Of a stretch of DNA of 64,000 bases, positions 13,109-31,790 are shown one piece after another. The stretch's first letter is position 1; the number at the start of each line of letters is the position of its first letter. The notes under the pieces were generated by a model. The model had not been told where the DNA came from. It did no database searches and worked only from the letters and a program-made list of their open reading frames with translations. Location: IMG/VR virus record IMGVR_UViG_3300024346_000016, positions 1-64,000 of that record. One strand, given 5' to 3'. The DNA is from a virus. The position numbers were made by a program, and so were the translations under genes.

Positions 13109-13698
13109 TATTTAGAATCAAGTTTTTTCAGCAAGGCATCTTTAATATGATCTGCTGTTATTTGATTATTTATATGGTTTGCTAACTCTGTTAAAAATTC
13201 TGACTTGTTCTGTGAGTTTTTATACATCATCTTCAATAAGTTAAGTGAAGGCAAGTTTACTCTTAAATTTAGGTTTAGTAAAGACTCCTCAGTCGCAAAC
13301 ATTTCAAAGATGCCTGCAGATTTTAACGTAGCTTGGACCTCAGCTTGGACAGGTTGACTAACTTTAGGTAAGGCTTCCGCATTAGTTATGTTTGGATCAA
13401 TTACTGGCCCTCTAATAGACATACATTCGGCTCTAGTTAAAGCTTCTTGTCCATCCATAATTGCCATTAATTTAGTATTAAGTTCTTCTAAACTTATGCT
13501 AGATCCATCGGCTAATTTTACAGCCATTAGGCCTCCTCTACTAAATACGTCAACTACCTTGGTAATGGTTGACATTTTGGTATTATCTGGGGTATTTACC
13601 CATTGGTAATCTTTGCCCATAATAAAATCTCTAGTTTGGGCGAGTGCATCAATATCGTACATATATTTGTTTATTTTGTTTTTTAACCATTTTATCAT
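13108..13698 (-). CDS. Hypothetical protein following the polymerase fragment
   Basis: 196 residues. An N-terminal basic helix (MIKWLKNKINKYMYDIDAL) is followed by a short beta-rich part with GGLMAVKLADGSSISLEELNTKL and a helical C-terminal half. No family is recognised. It shows neither the missing polymerase motifs (KxxxNSxYG, DTDS) nor homing-endonuclease motifs (GIY-YIG, LAGLIDADG, HNH). It starts inside the stop codon of the polymerase gene (TAATG overlap), so it is translated right after it. Confidence 0.7.
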   Translation of the reverse strand: MIKWLKNKINKYMYDIDALAQTRDFIMGKDYQWVNTPDNTKMSTITKVVDVFSRGGLMAVKLADGSSISLEELNTKLMAIMDGQEALTRAECMSIRGPVIDPNITNAEALPKVSQPVQAEVQATLKSAGIFEMFATEESLLNLNLRVNLPSLNLLKMMYKNSQNKSEFLTELANHINNQITADHIKDALLKKLDSK

Positions 13699-15077
13699 TA
13701 TTGCGCGGCTTTTTTCGCTGCCTGTTTTAATTCAGTAATATGCCCTTTAATACCCATACGTCGATCGTACATTTGCTTTAGTATAACTCGAGCAGCTGAG
13801 TCTTTCTTCTTAGTAAAAAGGGTACCATTTTTTGTATAAATTTCATCCTCTTTAAGAATATGACCAGGTTTCATTTTACCTAAGTATGTATCAGGAGAAA
13901 TATTAAACTGGATTTGCACGTTAGGGTACATTGACGAAAAGTCAAAGCATGAAACATATTTATGGTGACCTGGAATAGGCTTACTTACATAGGCACCTTC
14001 GTATGTTACCTGTTCGGCTAACTCTCTTTTGTCTGAGGCCATTTTCTTACCATCTCGTAAAAAGTGGCGACACATTAGGGATTCTGTAATAAACACTGCA
14101 CTAAAGACTTTTGATACATCAACTTGTGCAGTTTTGGAAATAGCAAAGGCTACATCAAGTAGACTTAGCTTATCTTCAATTAATTTAACAAGCATTACGT
14201 CAATTGCGTTATACTTTACGAAGTTTTCAACATCTTGTTGAGCTTCCATCATTGAACCATATTCGTGATGTAATTTACTTACTCCAAGCACTAATTGAGA
14301 AATATAATCAAGCTTATAATTTTCAACAACTTTAATTGGCTTAAGGTTCATAAACACTTCAAGATAATCGAGTAGACCTAAGTGAACTGGAGCTTGACCT
14401 TTACCGATTAGCCTATCACAAACCATAGATTCCATTGGTTTAATATTAAGGCGCTTACAACGATTAATTAGGTATTTCCAGTCAAATTCAATTACATTCC
14501 AACCTGTAATAAATGGAAGCTTTGGAAGTATTCGATGGAAGAAGGTTGACATTAAGTCTTCTTCTTTCTCAAAAAACATATATTTAAGTGTAAATACCTG
14601 GCCTTGTGCACTTAGGTATTCATTAATCTCTGCTTCCATTTTAGAAATAGCTTCGTTATCTAGCTTTTTCATTGTGGATAAAATATAGGTTACATTATCT
14701 GGACCACAAAATGAAATTAAGTTTACTGGCATGGCAGCTTTGGCTGGATCAGGAAACTCGTTTGAAGTTAACTGAATCTCAATATCGAGAAAATATTTCT
14801 TTGGCGTATAGTCAGAATAGATTTGATCAAGCTCTTCTTTAGTAAAGCTGGTTTGAATAAGTTCTTCGATTCGGAAGCGGCTTAGCCATTTGCTTTTACC
14901 TTTATCAACAAATTTATTATCCCAATTTCGATACTCCGAAGGGCGACCCGTCAGCTTCCAATTGAATTGATCAGCATCGTGGATATGCTTTACTGCGTAT
15001 GCGATATTACCAGCTTCATCATAATATGAAACTACTAGTTTAGAATCTTCTTGTTTAAATTCAGAGCTTATTATCAT
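13698..15077 (-). CDS. gp43: Family-B DNA polymerase, N-terminal half only (exonuclease plus motif A)
   Basis: 459 residues against about 900 in T4 gp43. The proofreading motifs are intact: Exo I YFLDIEI (98-100 DIE), Exo II ITGWNVIEFD (about 190-199), Exo III YNAIDVMLV (289-297). Polymerase motif A is present as FDFSSMYPN (378-386). The protein then stops after QMYDRRMGIKGHITEL, in what should be the first fingers helix. The downstream motifs B (KxxxNSxYG) and C (DTDS) are absent from the whole window. The stop overlaps the next gene, so this is not a simple local frameshift. The missing half is presumably encoded elsewhere in the genome, as in T4 relatives with gp43A/gp43B. Confidence 0.9.
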   Translation of the reverse strand: MIISSEFKQEDSKLVVSYYDEAGNIAYAVKHIHDADQFNWKLTGRPSEYRNWDNKFVDKGKSKWLSRFRIEELIQTSFTKEELDQIYSDYTPKKYFLDIEIQLTSNEFPDPAKAAMPVNLISFCGPDNVTYILSTMKKLDNEAISKMEAEINEYLSAQGQVFTLKYMFFEKEEDLMSTFFHRILPKLPFITGWNVIEFDWKYLINRCKRLNIKPMESMVCDRLIGKGQAPVHLGLLDYLEVFMNLKPIKVVENYKLDYISQLVLGVSKLHHEYGSMMEAQQDVENFVKYNAIDVMLVKLIEDKLSLLDVAFAISKTAQVDVSKVFSAVFITESLMCRHFLRDGKKMASDKRELAEQVTYEGAYVSKPIPGHHKYVSCFDFSSMYPNVQIQFNISPDTYLGKMKPGHILKEDEIYTKNGTLFTKKKDSAARVILKQMYDRRMGIKGHITELKQAAKKAAQ

Positions 15078-15740: not shown

Positions 15741-18700
15741 ATGGCACAAAAATTAAATCTCAATCGCTTTAAATCAAGTGGTGTTTACACAGTTGAAATC
15801 GATGAGAGTCAAAACATTGCATTACCTTTAGGAACCGGCCGATTAGTTATCGGATCGAGTAAAAGAGGACCAATCAATACTGTTGTGGCTTTAAGCGACT
15901 TAAACAGCGCGCTAGCAGTTTATGGTGAAAGAGACACTAAACTTGAAAGCAAGGGTAGTTATTTTCATAGAACTTTAGAAGTAGCTCTAAGAAAAGGCCC
16001 AGTTTATGCTTTGAACGTATTGCCAACTGACGATACATTAGACAAAGTAACATTTGCAACATTCAACACTGAATCTGCATCATTTAATTCAGATTTTAAT
16101 GCATCTGCATTCGAGCAACCACTGTCTAGCTTCTTTAATACCCAGAAGTTATGGTATGCTGACGAAGACCAGTTCAACAGAACTAAAAATAACGCGTTAG
16201 GTTCAGAAGATGACAATAAGATTTTTTCTATTGTTAACTTAGGAAAACGCCCAGTTACTGTTTGGGCCAAACTTGCAGACGTTAGCGGATACGATGTAAC
16301 CGTTAAAGAATACTACAAGGTTACAGGCGGAGACAAAGTAACTATTCCAAGTTATCTTCACCCAGATGATATTGTTGCTGACTATATTATTGAATTAATT
16401 GCAGTAGAAGGCGACTGGTCAGATAACATGAGACTTTCAACTGACCCTGTTTATAAAACATACTTTAATGAAAAAGGTTTAATTATGTCTAAACTTAATG
16501 GTTTCTTAAATTTAAGAGAAGTTAAGAATATTGCACGAGTAAACGGATCAATTATTCCTCAATTTAAAGATGCAGCTGGTTCAGATATTTCAATTGACAG
16601 AGTATTCAACCGATTATTTTCTCAAACTGAATTATTTTGTGCACTAGACGAAAACAAAATTGAATTGATTGACCTTGACACTGTTTTTGCAAATGCTTCA
16701 ATGGATTCACACCGAATCGATTTAGCTGGTCATGGTTATACAGACCTTATTGCAGCAGATTTTCAAGATTACTTTATTGATAATGGTTTTACTGGAGACT
16801 ACACCGACGCTAATGCTAAATTAGATGTACTTGGTTATAAAGCACCAGTTAAAAACACAGCAGTATTTGAAGTTACAACTGGAGTTTCAGATTCTAGTAG
16901 AGTCGTAACAGAAAACGGTAATCAAATTATTATTGCTCGTGAAGGTACTCAACTTTACAACGCATGGTACGATGGATTTATTGTAACTGGTAATGGTTTT
17001 ATTACTACGCAAAACGGAACGGTTGCATCTAAATATCTTAAAGTTGAATCTGGATTTACTGAAGTTGTTAACTTAGTTACTAAAAGCTATATTAAAATTA
17101 AATGTTTCGATAACGTTGCCTTAACTAATCAAAGCGCAACTATTCCAGTAATTACTGTAGTTGATACATTTGTTAAGCTTTCACTAGATATTCATGGAAC
17201 TAGCACAACAACAAAGATATTTGATTTTGCAACTGAATTAACTGCAAACAATAATGGTCTTGAAATTACTACAACTAAGACTGCTCTTAATAAAATTGAG
17301 ATGAAAGTTCTTAGCTCAACCTCAGTAACAATAGGAAGTGGTTCTCCAGCCGTAACCGCAAGCAATGCTGCTTATTTAGCTAGCGTTACAGAATTTGTTA
17401 AACCTAATCACTATGTGAAAGCTAAAGCAAATGGAGCAAAACGTTCAAGATTCTTAAAAATTGTTTCAGTTGCTGGAGCAGACGAAATTTCTTCGGCATC
17501 AGTAGTTACAGCAGCTGTCCCAGCTGTTAACGAAACAGCAATTGCGGTTGATACATTTATCGCAGCAGCGGCTACCATTACCTTAACTGCAGCAAATGCA
17601 AATATTGTAATTGGATGCACAGTAGCTGGTACAGGAATTGCAGCTAGTACTACGGTAACTAATAAAGTAGGAAATGTCTTAACTTTATCTGCGGCAACAA
17701 CAGCAGGAAGCGGTGGAACTTATACTTTTACTAAAGCTTTAGTTGCAGCTTTTACTACAGTTACAACAAAAACTTACAAAAAGTTTACAGTTACAACATT
17801 AGTACCAAGTGATTCAGCTATAATTGGAGTTGACATTGATACTGATATTATTTTCCATAAAGGTATTAGAAACTATATTACTTCATCTAAAGGTGTTAAG
17901 CTAAGTGGATTTGTAATGAGAGATGCTCAACTTCCTAATGGAACTGCTACTAGACAAGCTGATATTTTAGGTTGGCTATACGAAAACACAAACATTGCAA
18001 GCACATTAGCTGAAGGTCAAGCTGTAGATTTTAGATATATTATTGATACTTACGAAGGTGATATCTCTGGTTCATCTAAATATTACTTAGCAAAACTTGC
18101 AGCAGACAATGGTCAGTGTTTAGCGATCTTAAATGCTCCGTCTTACAGACAATTAGAGCTTTCAGTTGAACCTTCATTCTCTGATTTAACTACAAAATTA
18201 GTTTCTGCTAAACATATTGCAGATGGTGGTAATTTGGATCTTAATCCAACTACTACATTTAAATTTGTAGATGAAGAAGTTAATGGAGTTCCAATGGCAT
18301 CTTACGCAGCATACTTTATGCCTAACTTAATTGTAAATGATAATGGTAGAAACAAGTCAGTTCCGCCAGCAGCATACGTTGCAAATGCATTTATGAATAA
18401 GTATGAAGCCGGCAGACCTTTCTCAATCGTAGCTGGTAAAAATGGTATCTTAGGCGATCCTGAAATTGTTAATGTTGAATATGAATTATCTCAAGAAGAT
18501 AGAGATTACTTAGAGCCAGTTGGTTATAACTTAATCGTTCGTCGTAGAGGATTTGGTATCATGGTATTTACAAATAATACTGCATATCAAAAAATTAATT
18601 CAGCTCTTAATAATACTCACGTTAGAGAAGCTCTTGCAACAATCGAAAAAGATATCGAAAGAATCTTATTCAACTTCTTATTTGATTTTAACGATGAAAT

Positions 18701-26532: not shown

Positions 26533-27705
26533 TTAATCTAACAGTACTTCGAACCCTAAATTTTGTTTTATTACATCAACTTTTTGTATTAATACTCGAC
26601 CATCAACACTGTGATCTTGCATTACAGTAGCAGATACTGAAACAGAAATAGTTTGCTCATCAGGTAGAGTCATTGTCATAGACCCTTTACTATATGAATA
26701 GTTTAAAATTTGGTTCTCAATGCCGTCCTTAAGGCTTTGCCAGCTTTTCTTAACTGGATCAATTGAGTCTGGATTGGTGGTAAGTATAATTCTGTACTCT
26801 CCTTTCTTCTGCACGACGTCTTTAACCCAGAAGTCAATTTGATTGCCTGAACGTAAACCTTTTGAGAATTCCTTAAAGGCTGCGTCATTTTCAAAATCTG
26901 ACTTGTGTATAAGTCCGGTGTAGTAGTTTTGGAATTCAACAAATATTCCAAAGTCATAAGGATTATTAGTAAGAGTTCCAGTATATTTCTGGCTAAATGA
27001 TAGATCAGATACTTTTTGAGGAAGGGTTTCTTTAATATATTTCTTGTATGAAACAATGAATAGGTTATTAACTGAATCATAATTTTCAACCATAACTGGA
27101 ATTTCTTTGTGTAGATACTCAGAGAAATCTCTAATTACGTTGGCTGCAGCGTGTGAACCTGGTAAGAAACATTTAATTTGGTTTTTATAGATTGCAAGGT
27201 AACCTCCTTTAATAAGCTCAACCACTTTAACATAGAACCATTTATTATTCTTAGTAAAGTATTCAACGTCTTCTCTAAGAGTAAGGGCTGCACATTTTTT
27301 CTCTGATCCAAGAATTTCGCTCATGTTAGATTTATAGATCATAACTTTATATTTACGATCTTCATTTAGGAGGCTTAACGAAGGTTCCTGAGAAAATTCT
27401 CTAAATGGTACAAAAATACTAGTCATTGATGAAACGTCTTCCATTTCAACCATTGACATAGCAAAGTCAATTTTCTTAAGGCTAACTGTTCTGATTTCTC
27501 CTACCGGAATATCTTTACTTGCAGTCGGTAATTGATGACCAGCTTCTGATCCAAAATATTTATCGTATAGGTCCTGAGCATACGGCTCCTTACAGAAAAT
27601 TTTAACATTAGCTTTTCGATCGGCTTCTGATAATTTAACTGAGTTGTTAATTTTTGAATTTCCTTGTGAAAAAAGAATTTCAAGTTCCTCGTTGGTATAA
27701 GTCAT
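26533..27705 (-). CDS. S1-domain RNA-binding protein (ribosomal protein S1-like)
   Basis: 390 residues. Two or three tandem S1/OB-type domains are visible: residues about 68-143 (weak), 154-222 (VKVVELIKGGYLAIYKNQIKCFLPGS...) and 237-311 (YTGTLTNNPYDFGIFVEFQNYYTGLIHKSDF...), the last having the classic G-x-V-x(6)-FG-x-FV-x(8)-GL-x-H-x-S layout of ribosomal S1. The last 80 residues are unlike S1. It could bind mRNA and steer ribosomes to phage transcripts, or act as an RNase cofactor. It sits in the early block between nrdB and a 1342-residue protein. The domain call is confident; the ribosomal role is inference. Confidence 0.8.
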   Translation of the reverse strand: MTYTNEELEILFSQGNSKINNSVKLSEADRKANVKIFCKEPYAQDLYDKYFGSEAGHQLPTASKDIPVGEIRTVSLKKIDFAMSMVEMEDVSSMTSIFVPFREFSQEPSLSLLNEDRKYKVMIYKSNMSEILGSEKKCAALTLREDVEYFTKNNKWFYVKVVELIKGGYLAIYKNQIKCFLPGSHAAANVIRDFSEYLHKEIPVMVENYDSVNNLFIVSYKKYIKETLPQKVSDLSFSQKYTGTLTNNPYDFGIFVEFQNYYTGLIHKSDFENDAAFKEFSKGLRSGNQIDFWVKDVVQKKGEYRIILTTNPDSIDPVKKSWQSLKDGIENQILNYSYSKGSMTMTLPDEQTISVSVSATVMQDHSVDGRVLIQKVDVIKQNLGFEVLLD

Positions 27706-27761
27706 ATTTTTATATTTGAATAATCTAAAATATTATACAGATAAAGAGGTAGTAGTTTTGA

Positions 27762-30700
27762 TTATGGGGTAGGAACATACACTGGCGTACCTAAAAAATC
27801 TTGGCCTAAAATAGTACCAGTTGCGGCCTTTGCTTTATGCGCTAAATCATCTAAAAACATAACATATAAAGGGTTCTTCATAGTTAGCCTATCCCAAGTT
27901 GGAAGGTCATCTTGATTTAGGATTGGGTGTACACCTGCTCGTAGAATATTTCCAAGCCCTAGAGATTGGCCAGCCGCGATCGGTAAATATACGGCAATTT
28001 CTGGTAAATTCTTAGCAGCTTTGTCCATTACTTTTAAAATTTCCAATTGAGCTAACAGGATTAATTGGTTAACTGTTTTAATAAAAGCTGGGGTTGGGAG
28101 GGATCTTTCAAGCGCCTCTTTAATCATTTTATAGATTTTAAGAAATGGATTTGTCATATCAAACAACATGGTAAATGCACCCTTAACCCCTTTTAATAAG
28201 TTAATTAATTTAAATAAGGATTGTAGTGGCGCTAGTAAAGTTTCTATTAATTCAGTAATTGCCATTTTAATTGCAACCTTAATTCCTCTGTATAGTGCAG
28301 AGATCCAGGCACTTGAAATTGCAGTAATTGGTAAATCACATATTCTAATAGGTAATAGGCTTAATATTTTATCCATTAAAACCTGAATACCCGCTTTTAA
28401 TAACGGTTTAATTAATGAATCTAAGTTGATTGTTAATTGTGGTACACCTAATATTCTAGGAGGAAATCCTAGTGGAATTCTTAATAGTGGTAAGAATGGC
28501 TTTAATATGCTTAAAAGAAGTTGCAGAGCGGCTGCCCCATTTAACGGAATATCTATATTTGGAATAGATTTAGCTATAAGATTTGTTATTGATTGGATAA
28601 TTTCCCTTGTTACACTAAATACTTCGCCAAATATAGATTTGATTAAGTCAGTCGTTAGTGCATCAATTGCGGTATGAGCCAATTGTCTAAACGACATAAT
28701 AATAGCAAGCACAAGCGGATCAATAAATTGAGGTATTGCAAGATCGCTTGGGCAACACTTAGGTTTTACAATTTGTGTAAAATTACCCAGCGCATTTTTA
28801 ATTGGTTTAGTAAATCCAGCAACAGAGTGGCCCAGTAATTCAGCAAAACGTTTTCTTTTTTTAATCTCGGCCTCATAAACAAAGTTCGAAACCGTTATTT
28901 TATTAATTGAAAGTGCTCTTGGTGTTTCTTGACCAATCTTTTTTTCATAGGATTGTACTCGAGCGGCCTGCTTTGGATGATTTTTATCATACTCAGCATT
29001 TCTTTCATTAAATCTTTTTCTTTTTGCAATTTCTGCATCAACCTTTCGTTGAAATTCTGGAGAATCTCTTTTTACCTTTAGGTTTTTTCCAGAAAAAACA
29101 TCGCATATTTGATCAACGTAACCCTTTGCAGTTTTCTTAAATGCGGTTACACTTTCGACTTTAGTTATATCAACTTTAGCCGCGGCTGCATCAATTGAGG
29201 CATTTAAATCTAAATCTCGCATTGCTTTTCTAAACTTCTTATTAAAGTTAATAGATTTGGCTTTTCCAAAGTTTGTTCTTGACATATACTCCATAACAGA
29301 ATCAATTACTCCATCAAGCATGGCTTCAGGTTTAATTGATTTGCCCTTGTCTTTTGGAATAGTATAGGTTCCAAGTTTAAGTTTATCTAAAAATTTATCT
29401 AAATCTAGAGAAAGAGACAATACCATTTCTTTACACTCATCCGAATCAATATTTAAGTTTGAGTGTGAGAAGTTAGATGGAATATTTGAATAAAGATTAC
29501 CTGGATCGCAGTTTAGCCAGGCTTGGTCAAAATTATACGGAAGACCTGCTAGAGTAGTTTGTCGATTTTTAGCAGAGTCTTGGGCGCTTTTTAATGCGAT
29601 TGAAAAATTAGGTAATTCAAAATCTCCAAGTTCATCTATTTTAACACAAATCGTGCGATTTATATTTTTAACAAATACTTTAAAATCATTTAAGGAAGCA
29701 GTTGCAGTATCTAAAAAATCTTCATCTCCAGTTTTCCAGGCTGGTTTTTCGCCTGGTTTAAATGGAATATTGAAACCATTTGGCATTAATTTACCAGGAT
29801 CAGCTAATTCCAATAAGGCTTGAGCCTGTGCTGCAACTTTTGCTACTTTTTGCAATTTCGCATTTACCATGATATTACCAAATGTAATTGTCTTTGCGCC
29901 AGTTCCGCTAGGTTTTCCAATTGATGTTTGGTTTATACCCAATGGAGAAACGCTAGCTTCATCTAGTGTATATCCAACTGGATCAAATTGACCCTGTAGT
30001 GCTCTAAAACTTAATAGGATAATCTTTTTTCCATCTGGTCCAATGTACATAACAATTGGTGATGGAACGATTCCACACTGTACATACCAAATAACTAGAG
30101 TACCAAATGGTAAGTTTAAGGTTACTATATGAAACCAAATTTGAGGTAGTGGAATTCTAATTGGATATGGAGTTGGAATAATTAAGCCAACCGGCCAATA
30201 TCTTAATGCGGGTAAGCGCATAATATCTGGAATAGGTAATAGGTTTAGCTTATTTAGGTGTTTAGTTACCTCTTTCCAATAACAGCCACATGTATAATCT
30301 GGATTAGCTTCAGTTGGCTGCACGGTCATTGATTTGTAACCCAATGGGTCAGAGCCGGCTTTTGCTAATTTTTTACAAGGGCCCTCATCAGGCGGAACAC
30401 AGCCAGTTGCCGCAAGAGCTTTGGCTAAATCGTCTGGTTTTGGCGAATTTGCCTCTTTTATCTTAGCGATTCGGGTTTCAATGTCTTTAATTAAACCTAA
30501 TACTTCAGCTGAGCTGTTTTTAATTGCAGTTCTGGCATTTTGCCCATATGCGCTTGGTAAAACCTCTACTCCATTTACGATAAGTTTTTCAGTAGGTTTT
30601 GCCTCTATACTACCATTATTGACAACATCAAATACCTGTTTTTTGGCAAGATTTGATAATTTTAAAAATTTACCAGAGCTAACTAAGTCTTTTCTAAATT

Positions 30701-31790
30701 TCTGACGCTCTACTTCAATACGGGCTTCAATCTTAGGCTCAAGATCTTCATAAAATTGCTGATACTTTTCAGTATTTTCAATATAGAACGTTTCCTCTGT
30801 ACCATTTGATCTTTTTTCTTTAACTATTCCGTCGAGACCTTCCTTTTTTAATTTTTTATCAACGCTAACTGAACTTGTGGTTAAACCTTTTTCTTGTAGC
30901 GTAAATAATTTTAAAGGATCCTCAATCTTTTTATAAAATTCTGCAAGCGAGCCAGTAAATGGATATAAAATATCGGTTGCGGCGGTATCAGTGTATAGCT
31001 GTGATGCAAATCTAACAACTTCTAACTTTCTTTTTTGAAAAACTTTAGCTTGTGTTTCATACACAGCATCCTCAGGTGATATTTTAATATCAACTGTAAC
31101 CTGCTTGGTTTCAGAATTACCAAATTGATCAACTTTACCAGTTTTTTGATTTTCTGAAGATTTAACCGTGAACCCGGATTTTCCTGGTAAAGTTATTAAA
31201 AAGGTTGGGTTTGTTGAATTATAAGAATATGTAATTGGCGAGATTCTGCCGATTGCGCCTACTCCTATTGGTTTTTTACTAAAATATGCTTCGACTTGGT
31301 CTTTAATATCTGCATTTAGTTTGTCTATTTCAGATAGTGTAGTTGTAGTTGCTGCAACGTTAAATTTATAGGAATTATATTCAAATTTATTTAGGATTGT
31401 AGTAAAAGATGGAGCAGCTGTAGGAACAGTAAATCTTGCATCAAGGTCTTTAACTACTAAATTAAAAAATTCTTGGCGTGTTTTATAAAAATACTCAGCT
31501 GGATATAGAAGATCCCGTAATTCGTTTAATCTTGAAATTACATATTTAGACTTAACTGCTGCCTTTAGTTTAGCATCATTTTTTGCTAATTCCGCATTTA
31601 CCGCATCGATTGTCTTTTTAGCGCAAGGGTCTTCAGTTACTAGTTGAGTAATTTCTTCCTTTTGAGCAGTTTCAATTTGATCTGACGTTGGGAGGCAATC
31701 GTCTAAAGCTGCAAGATCCCCTTCAGTAAAGAAGGGGTTTTCTCTTAGTTCGCAACGAATTTGGTCAATGAGAATGTCTATTTCTGACAA
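27762..31790 (-). CDS. Large protein of unknown role, 1342 residues, hydrophobic C-terminal third
   Basis: The frame starts at a TTG (31790); no ATG lies near the N-terminus and an in-frame TAA is a few codons upstream. Residues 1-480 are charged and helical; 510-640 are rich in Pro/Ile/Trp (WFHIVTLNLPFGTLVIWYV); 1070-1270 form long hydrophobic/amphipathic helices (ILKPFLPLLRIPLGFPPRI; LIETLLAPLQSLFKLINLL). Cysteine pairs occur (KCCPSD, CGCYWKE). No family is recognised. Size and composition suggest a virion protein, tape-measure or membrane-active ejection protein, yet it lies in a minus-strand block directly after groEL. Only weak late-promoter-like sequence (TTAAATAAA) precedes it. Confidence 0.75.
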   Translation of the reverse strand: MSEIDILIDQIRCELRENPFFTEGDLAALDDCLPTSDQIETAQKEEITQLVTEDPCAKKTIDAVNAELAKNDAKLKAAVKSKYVISRLNELRDLLYPAEYFYKTRQEFFNLVVKDLDARFTVPTAAPSFTTILNKFEYNSYKFNVAATTTTLSEIDKLNADIKDQVEAYFSKKPIGVGAIGRISPITYSYNSTNPTFLITLPGKSGFTVKSSENQKTGKVDQFGNSETKQVTVDIKISPEDAVYETQAKVFQKRKLEVVRFASQLYTDTAATDILYPFTGSLAEFYKKIEDPLKLFTLQEKGLTTSSVSVDKKLKKEGLDGIVKEKRSNGTEETFYIENTEKYQQFYEDLEPKIEARIEVERQKFRKDLVSSGKFLKLSNLAKKQVFDVVNNGSIEAKPTEKLIVNGVEVLPSAYGQNARTAIKNSSAEVLGLIKDIETRIAKIKEANSPKPDDLAKALAATGCVPPDEGPCKKLAKAGSDPLGYKSMTVQPTEANPDYTCGCYWKEVTKHLNKLNLLPIPDIMRLPALRYWPVGLIIPTPYPIRIPLPQIWFHIVTLNLPFGTLVIWYVQCGIVPSPIVMYIGPDGKKIILLSFRALQGQFDPVGYTLDEASVSPLGINQTSIGKPSGTGAKTITFGNIMVNAKLQKVAKVAAQAQALLELADPGKLMPNGFNIPFKPGEKPAWKTGDEDFLDTATASLNDFKVFVKNINRTICVKIDELGDFELPNFSIALKSAQDSAKNRQTTLAGLPYNFDQAWLNCDPGNLYSNIPSNFSHSNLNIDSDECKEMVLSLSLDLDKFLDKLKLGTYTIPKDKGKSIKPEAMLDGVIDSVMEYMSRTNFGKAKSINFNKKFRKAMRDLDLNASIDAAAAKVDITKVESVTAFKKTAKGYVDQICDVFSGKNLKVKRDSPEFQRKVDAEIAKRKRFNERNAEYDKNHPKQAARVQSYEKKIGQETPRALSINKITVSNFVYEAEIKKRKRFAELLGHSVAGFTKPIKNALGNFTQIVKPKCCPSDLAIPQFIDPLVLAIIMSFRQLAHTAIDALTTDLIKSIFGEVFSVTREIIQSITNLIAKSIPNIDIPLNGAAALQLLLSILKPFLPLLRIPLGFPPRILGVPQLTINLDSLIKPLLKAGIQVLMDKILSLLPIRICDLPITAISSAWISALYRGIKVAIKMAITELIETLLAPLQSLFKLINLLKGVKGAFTMLFDMTNPFLKIYKMIKEALERSLPTPAFIKTVNQLILLAQLEILKVMDKAAKNLPEIAVYLPIAAGQSLGLGNILRAGVHPILNQDDLPTWDRLTMKNPLYVMFLDDLAHKAKAATGTILGQDFLGTPVYVPTP

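Follow-up and report, generated by a model that had tools for sequence, protein, structure and literature searches.

Does a phage that does without Shine-Dalgarno (SD) sites carry its own version of ribosomal protein bS1, the mRNA-catching arm of the host ribosome, and could such a protein turn initiation towards phage messages? This question is raised by one gene in a window of 64,000 nt (positions 1 to 64,000 of virus record IMGVR_UViG_3300024346_000016). The original prediction, made from the sequence alone, had claimed an S1 protein with at least two domains in the ribosomal layout, encoded by a phage without SD sites that infects Bacteroidota, and had proposed a role in translation takeover. 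A domain search, a structure prediction and a comparison with bS1 domains 1-2 were named as checks; missing OB folds or a closer likeness to a nuclease or PNPase S1 domain were to count against it.

The S1 gene and its phage

The locus comprises exactly one ORF, coding for a protein of 390 aa (Table 1). It belongs to a virus record of 119.5 kb (genome G000) from a large T4-like phage. Near the S1 gene we found genes for a tail sheath, a UvsX-like recombinase, a DnaB-like helicase, a gp46/SbcC-like protein and a single-strand-binding protein, and Pfam also identified GroEL and RNR genes. The host phylum is probably Bacteroidota, in support of the earlier assignment. The gene order GroEL - 1342-aa protein - S1 - RNR is conserved across the S1 phage family; in several relatives nrdAB is replaced, with S1 retained. 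The 1342-aa protein (window 27762-31790) adjoins S1 and keeps its position beside it in the family at 24-98% identity. Pfam and PHROGs gave no informative match for this neighbour.

Table 1. Features of the S1 locus; positions refer to the window, OB domain limits are approximate.
Feature	Position	Strand	Basis
S1 gene, shortened bS1 homologue, 390 aa	26533..27705	-	ORF, Pfam, NCBIfam, hhalign, dN/dS
Predicted N-terminal helix, residues 5-13, candidate counterpart of the uS2-docking bS1 helix	27667..27693	-	AF2
OB domain 1, residues 71-134, best match bS1 D1	27304..27495	-	AF2, hhalign
OB domain 2, residues 156-219, KGGY...FLPGS, best match bS1 D2	27049..27240	-	AF2, hhalign
OB domain 3, residues 240-309, canonical RNA-binding S1 domain	26779..26988	-	Pfam, AF2, residue counts
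Degenerate OB domain 4, residues 333-388	26542..26709	-	AF2, hhalign, alignment
Promoter-like GTATAATA, start 33 nt before the S1 ATG	27731..27738	-	motif counts
A/T-rich S1 leader without SD site	27706..27730	-	sequence, SD statistics

A shortened bS1

Pfam recognises a single S1 domain in the protein, above the gathering cut-off (E 3e-5, residues 251-302). The best NCBIfam match is 30S ribosomal protein S1 (E 2e-19, residues 91-302), compared with only E 5e-4 for the PNPase model, and in a phmmer search against PDB the best matches are again bS1 entries (E 1e-10). The best NCBIfam S1 model reaches 69.5 bits, far short of its equivalog cut-off of 624 bits, and no other bS1 equivalog model is passed either; for this reason, and due to the loss of D5-D6, we do not file the protein as a bS1 equivalog. 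When searched singly against four Flavobacteriia genomes, it matched bS1 only. A profile of the S1 family matched most of 99 Bacteroidota genomes, with ORFs of bS1 size in the best places. Beside the S1 domains no catalytic nuclease domain was detected; Pfam and NCBIfam returned S1-type families alone.

An AlphaFold2 (AF2) model built from 35 relatives (mean pLDDT 82.8, pTM 0.57) consists of four OB-type units, so the OB folds at issue are indeed predicted. Foldseek against PDB ranked ribosome-bound bS1 chains best, with the 30S mRNA delivery complex at the top (E 4e-16). Aligned profile to profile with Flavobacteriia bS1 in hhalign, the phage protein is collinear with D1-D4 (P 99, E 2e-18, 305 columns), which bears out the ribosomal layout claimed at the outset. 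With single domains, phage D1 best matched bS1 D1 (P 90; runner-up D6 with 47) and phage D2 best matched bS1 D2 (P 98; runner-up 34). Phage D3 matched the RNA-binding class D4/D5, bS1 D3 itself reaching P 51, and D4 alone had no single-domain match above P 16. According to AF2 and hhalign, the protein thus has three intact domains and a degenerate D4, and lacks D5-D6; in alignments of divergent relatives such as L068, D4 is canonical. D2, which bears the bS1 signature KGG...FLPGS, is the most conserved domain among the relatives, G167, G168, P182 and G183 being invariant in 35 of 35. In D3, residues F252, F255, H267, D296 and R305 are kept in most relatives; D1 is less conserved than D2-D3. 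Phage S1 is a shortened derivative of bS1, from which it descended.

In E. coli bS1, the uS2-docking elements are Phe5 and Phe9 in the N-terminal helix and Lys43, which contacts the uS2 zinc pocket (PMC10123108). AF2 predicts a helix at the corresponding end of phage S1, at a local pLDDT of only ~55-60. Relatives carry the N-terminal motif FDW..[FY]E or DFDLLF, comparable to FNWHNF in Flavobacteriia bS1, and F[DN]W..[FY]E opens the divergent relatives and the Lak proteins, as it does in Flavobacteriia bS1. In the window clade, one of the two helix aromatics is replaced (L8/F12), and the alignment shows no conservation at the D1 site that corresponds to E. coli Lys43.

Family, selection and origin

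Searches of viral contigs yielded 66 S1 loci, with identities down to 26% and contigs of up to 294 kb. A 98%-identical gene lies in a 216.8-kb contig from a near-identical relative (genome G005), and a BFVD relative with 37% identity was already named 30S ribosomal protein S1. In the phage collection no cultured member of the family was recognised, the matches being metagenomic records or short contigs with poor documentation, and a megablast search of phages with the window region gave no match. The dN/dS of S1 is ~0.04-0.13; the gene is under strong purifying selection.

In a tree of 70 rows, the 35 phage rows (window clade, Lak and huge phages) share one side of a 100/100 branch and are separated from the rest by a long stem, although branches are long and placement within the phage side is unsure. 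On this tree, phage S1 is an old phage lineage. A recent capture of host bS1 is unsupported, all phage proteins falling into a single lineage of their own with a long stem. An origin inside Bacteroidota bS1 is suggested by the common F[DN]W..[FY] motif. The length of the branch keeps the tree from showing such an origin, and at the N-terminus phage S1 and Flavobacteriia bS1 match weakly in hhalign (P 17).

Translation starts and promoter-like motifs

For SD statistics, gene starts were defined as ATG ORFs of at least 100 aa; SD 4-mers were counted at -20 to -5, with the far-upstream region as control. We found no enrichment in the window phage (8.1% of genes versus 8.1% in the control), as originally claimed, nor in the 217-kb genome G005 (9.0% versus 8.5%) or at Flavobacteriia gene starts (4.5% versus 6.4%). 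In the window phage and its 217-kb relative, A peaks at -20 to -13 of gene starts. Because Flavobacteriia starts are equally SD-less, the trait is not phage-specific; phage and probable hosts have it in common. For the same reason the published correlation between S1 and SD loss is confounded, and a relation of cause and effect between the two is unsupported. Being a host trait, the lack of SD sites therefore gives by itself no pointer to the function of S1.

The motif GTATAATA occurs 20-40 nt before five starts in G000, that of S1 among them (0.12 expected), and before 12 starts in G005 (0.37 expected). GTATAAT is present upstream of S1 in 19 of the 41 relatives listed. A second motif, ATAAATAA, is found 20-40 nt before 13 genes in G000 (0.22 expected); it precedes the tail sheath gene and a 226-aa gene just upstream of the bS21 gene described below. 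It was seen at window positions 15741, 35531, 42015 and 58550 and before many genes in L082-L084. Located 24-34 nt before structural-type genes, it resembles a T4-type late promoter. GTATAATA is of a class distinct from the late-type ATAAATAA and marks a second class of genes. S1 has the non-late promoter-like motif, and bS21 sits in a gene cluster with the late-type motif. From these motifs we infer that S1 is expressed early or in the middle phase and bS21 late; late expression of bS21 in Bacteroidetes phages (PMC9723584) agrees with the latter.

A second ribosomal protein gene

The phage also encodes bS21, at record positions 113250-113444 (L084:9250-9444), beyond the window. The protein passes TIGR00030 (36.6 bits versus a cut-off of 28.95), F. 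johnsoniae bS21 is its top match in PDB, and Tyr54, reported to help block the anti-SD (PMC9723584), is kept in the alignment. It is of the Bacteroidota type. A Nudix gene adjoins it. The leader of the phage bS21 gene lacks an SD. In many Flavobacteriales an extended SD precedes the host rpsU and serves its autoregulation (PMC9976891); from such control the phage copy may be exempt.

In E. coli, bS21 directly contacts domain 1 of bS1 (PMC10123108). The S1 family is present in 10 of the 17 bS21-phage contigs searched; the four that reach 200 kb or more all have it. Conversely, a number of S1 phages in this size range, one of them of 271 kb, lack a bS21 recognisable by PF01165, which rules out a universal pairing of S1 and bS21. 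Phage-encoded uS2 or bS18 was not found in ten genomes.

Other features of the phage genomes

The 119-kb record to which the window belongs yielded no tRNA genes; the 217-kb genome G005 carries six at one end (Ser, two Leu, Arg, Pro and Met; L095:1767-16566). ARAGORN reported tmRNAs at L083:6191-6654 and L088:3997-4463 with unrelated tags. These calls are probably false, since near-identical phages give differing tags. Of the phage DNA polymerase family, the DNA polymerase ORF (window 13698-15077, 459 aa) spans no more than the N-terminal half; the remainder must lie elsewhere or be missing. In a 205-aa ORF (L084:167-784), the C-terminal half, from after CPVPS to near SHN, looks intein/Hint-like by eye.

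Possible function of phage S1

D1-D2 form the ribosome-docking half of bS1 in E. coli and do not bind free RNA. Phage S1 keeps D1-D2 plus one intact RNA-binding domain, D3. It thereby retains the E. coli initiation core, as D1-D3 are necessary and sufficient for formation of the 30S initiation complex there and D5-D6 are dispensable (PMC3858243). In F. johnsoniae, added bS1 doubles initiation on an SD-less mRNA, with no such effect on the SD-bearing rpsU (PMC9976891). The best-supported explanation, to which we give about even odds (roughly 0.5), is that phage S1 is a translation-initiation takeover factor docking on the host 30S subunit. Made before the late phase, as its promoter-like motif suggests, the protein would dock beside the mRNA exit channel and replace or compete with the loosely bound host bS1. 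Its D3 would recruit the A-rich, SD-less leaders of phage mRNAs and so bias initiation toward phage messages. Later, phage bS21, located beside bS1 on the ribosome and with Tyr54 kept, may complete a remodelled exit channel. Such a takeover function is plausible, and the co-encoded bS21 strengthens that reading; that many large S1 phages (200 kb or more) have no recognisable bS21 counts against it. Against docking itself speak the unconserved Lys43 position and variable D1 of the window clade, and the replaced aromatic in a helix modelled at low confidence.

It has to be asked if the same features could be explained otherwise. That the protein is a generic S1 domain of a nuclease (PNPase, RNase R) or an unrelated OB protein has hardly any likelihood left: the weak PNPase match is exceeded by bS1 by 15 orders of magnitude and over three domains, a catalytic domain is absent, and domains 1 and 2 specifically match their bS1 counterparts. 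Single-genome searches, fold matches and NCBIfam scores rule out a nuclease S1 domain, and a closer likeness to PNPase or RNases did not appear, as similarity to bS1 far exceeds it. Possible, if rather unlikely, is an RNA chaperone or shield acting off the ribosome, with D3 coating phage mRNA to protect or unfold it without stable 30S docking. D3 is the intact RNA-binding domain, variation is greater in D1 and the N-terminal anchor, the site of Lys43 is not preserved, and Al-Shayeb et al. 2020 allow action 'on or off the ribosome' (PMC7162821); yet the protein still has D1-D2, for which a pure RNA chaperone would have no need, and conservation is highest in D2.

We consider it unlikely that phage S1 serves host shut-off, a shortened bS1 ousting that of the host so that host mRNAs are starved of it, while phage messages with A-rich, open leaders need less. 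E. coli losing D4-D6 grows extremely slowly with its truncated S1 still binding ribosomes (PMC3858243), and the S1 promoter-like motif is not of the late type. On the other hand, phage mRNAs initiate without SD like those of the host, so a block of bS1 should hurt both, and the conserved RNA-binding residues of D3 would be superfluous in a pure inhibitor. Still less probable is a co-factor of another phage process, such as RNase activation (cf. bS1 and T4 RegB), replication or recombination (cf. lambda beta protein) or a virion component. bS1 moonlights in the biology of T4, Q-beta and lambda (PMC13157829), and the GroEL - 1342-aa protein - S1 - RNR neighbourhood is conserved, but this neighbourhood is neither translation- nor RNase-specific, S1 stays where nrdAB is replaced, and it lacks the late motif found before the tail-sheath gene.

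Returning to takeover by 30S docking, a more far-reaching version is a two-step re-specification of the 30S subunit without SD pairing, phage bS1 acting first (non-late promoter) and phage bS21 following from the late cluster, which would create phage-preferring ribosomes. The proteins exchanged would be neighbours in contact at the mRNA exit channel, both loosely attached to the ribosome. We regard this version as doubtful. If phage S1 does enter ribosomes, a virus would re-specify bacterial initiation through a ribosomal-protein swap, in a phylum whose start-site choice works without SD pairing and is only partly understood. With S1 and bS21 as a conserved pair, the idea is testable in F. 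johnsoniae, for which purified ribosomes, bS1 and initiation assays exist (PMC9976891).

Comparison with known systems

Al-Shayeb et al. 2020 reported S1-domain proteins from huge phages in which SD sites are rare, proposed a role in initiation and noted that true rpS1 identity is hard to confirm (PMC7162821). The takeover idea for rpS1 in SD-less huge phages is thus already published. New here are the confirmation of bS1 by domain order, which also sets the window protein apart from generic S1 proteins, the pairing of S1 with bS21 and the promoter split. The huge-phage rpS1-like proteins, including those of Lak, share with window S1 several S1 domains and large SD-poor genomes, and takeover has been proposed for them too. 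In the tree, the Lak and LR7565xx/LR745206 proteins lie on the same side as window S1, and the Lak N-terminus SYAQELYD is of the PYAQELYD type seen in the window family. The window phage differs from this set by its T4-like genome (tail sheath, UvsX, gp46-like), its degenerate D4 and the co-encoded bS21.

With Bacteroidota bS1 (e.g. Flavobacterium rpsA), window S1 has in common the order D1-D4, the FLPGS of domain 2 and the RNA-binding D3, and the divergent family members additionally share the N-terminal F[DN]W..[FY] motif. At ~25% identity, the phage protein has 390 aa and no D5-D6, whereas Bacteroidota bS1 has ~590-800 aa. A bS1 is also encoded by the Microcystis phage PhiMa05/MaAM05, where it is attributed to a Vampirovibrio-like host and accompanied by five other r-proteins (PMC13157829). 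The bS21 of the freshwater Bacteroidetes phages of Chen et al. 2022 resembles that of the window phage as an exit-channel r-protein with Tyr54, SD-less context and late-gene association (PMC9723584). Those phages were reported without other ribosomal protein genes, and their bS21 adjoins terminase and capsid genes (PMC9723584), whereas in the window phage bS21 adjoins a Nudix gene and is co-encoded with S1.
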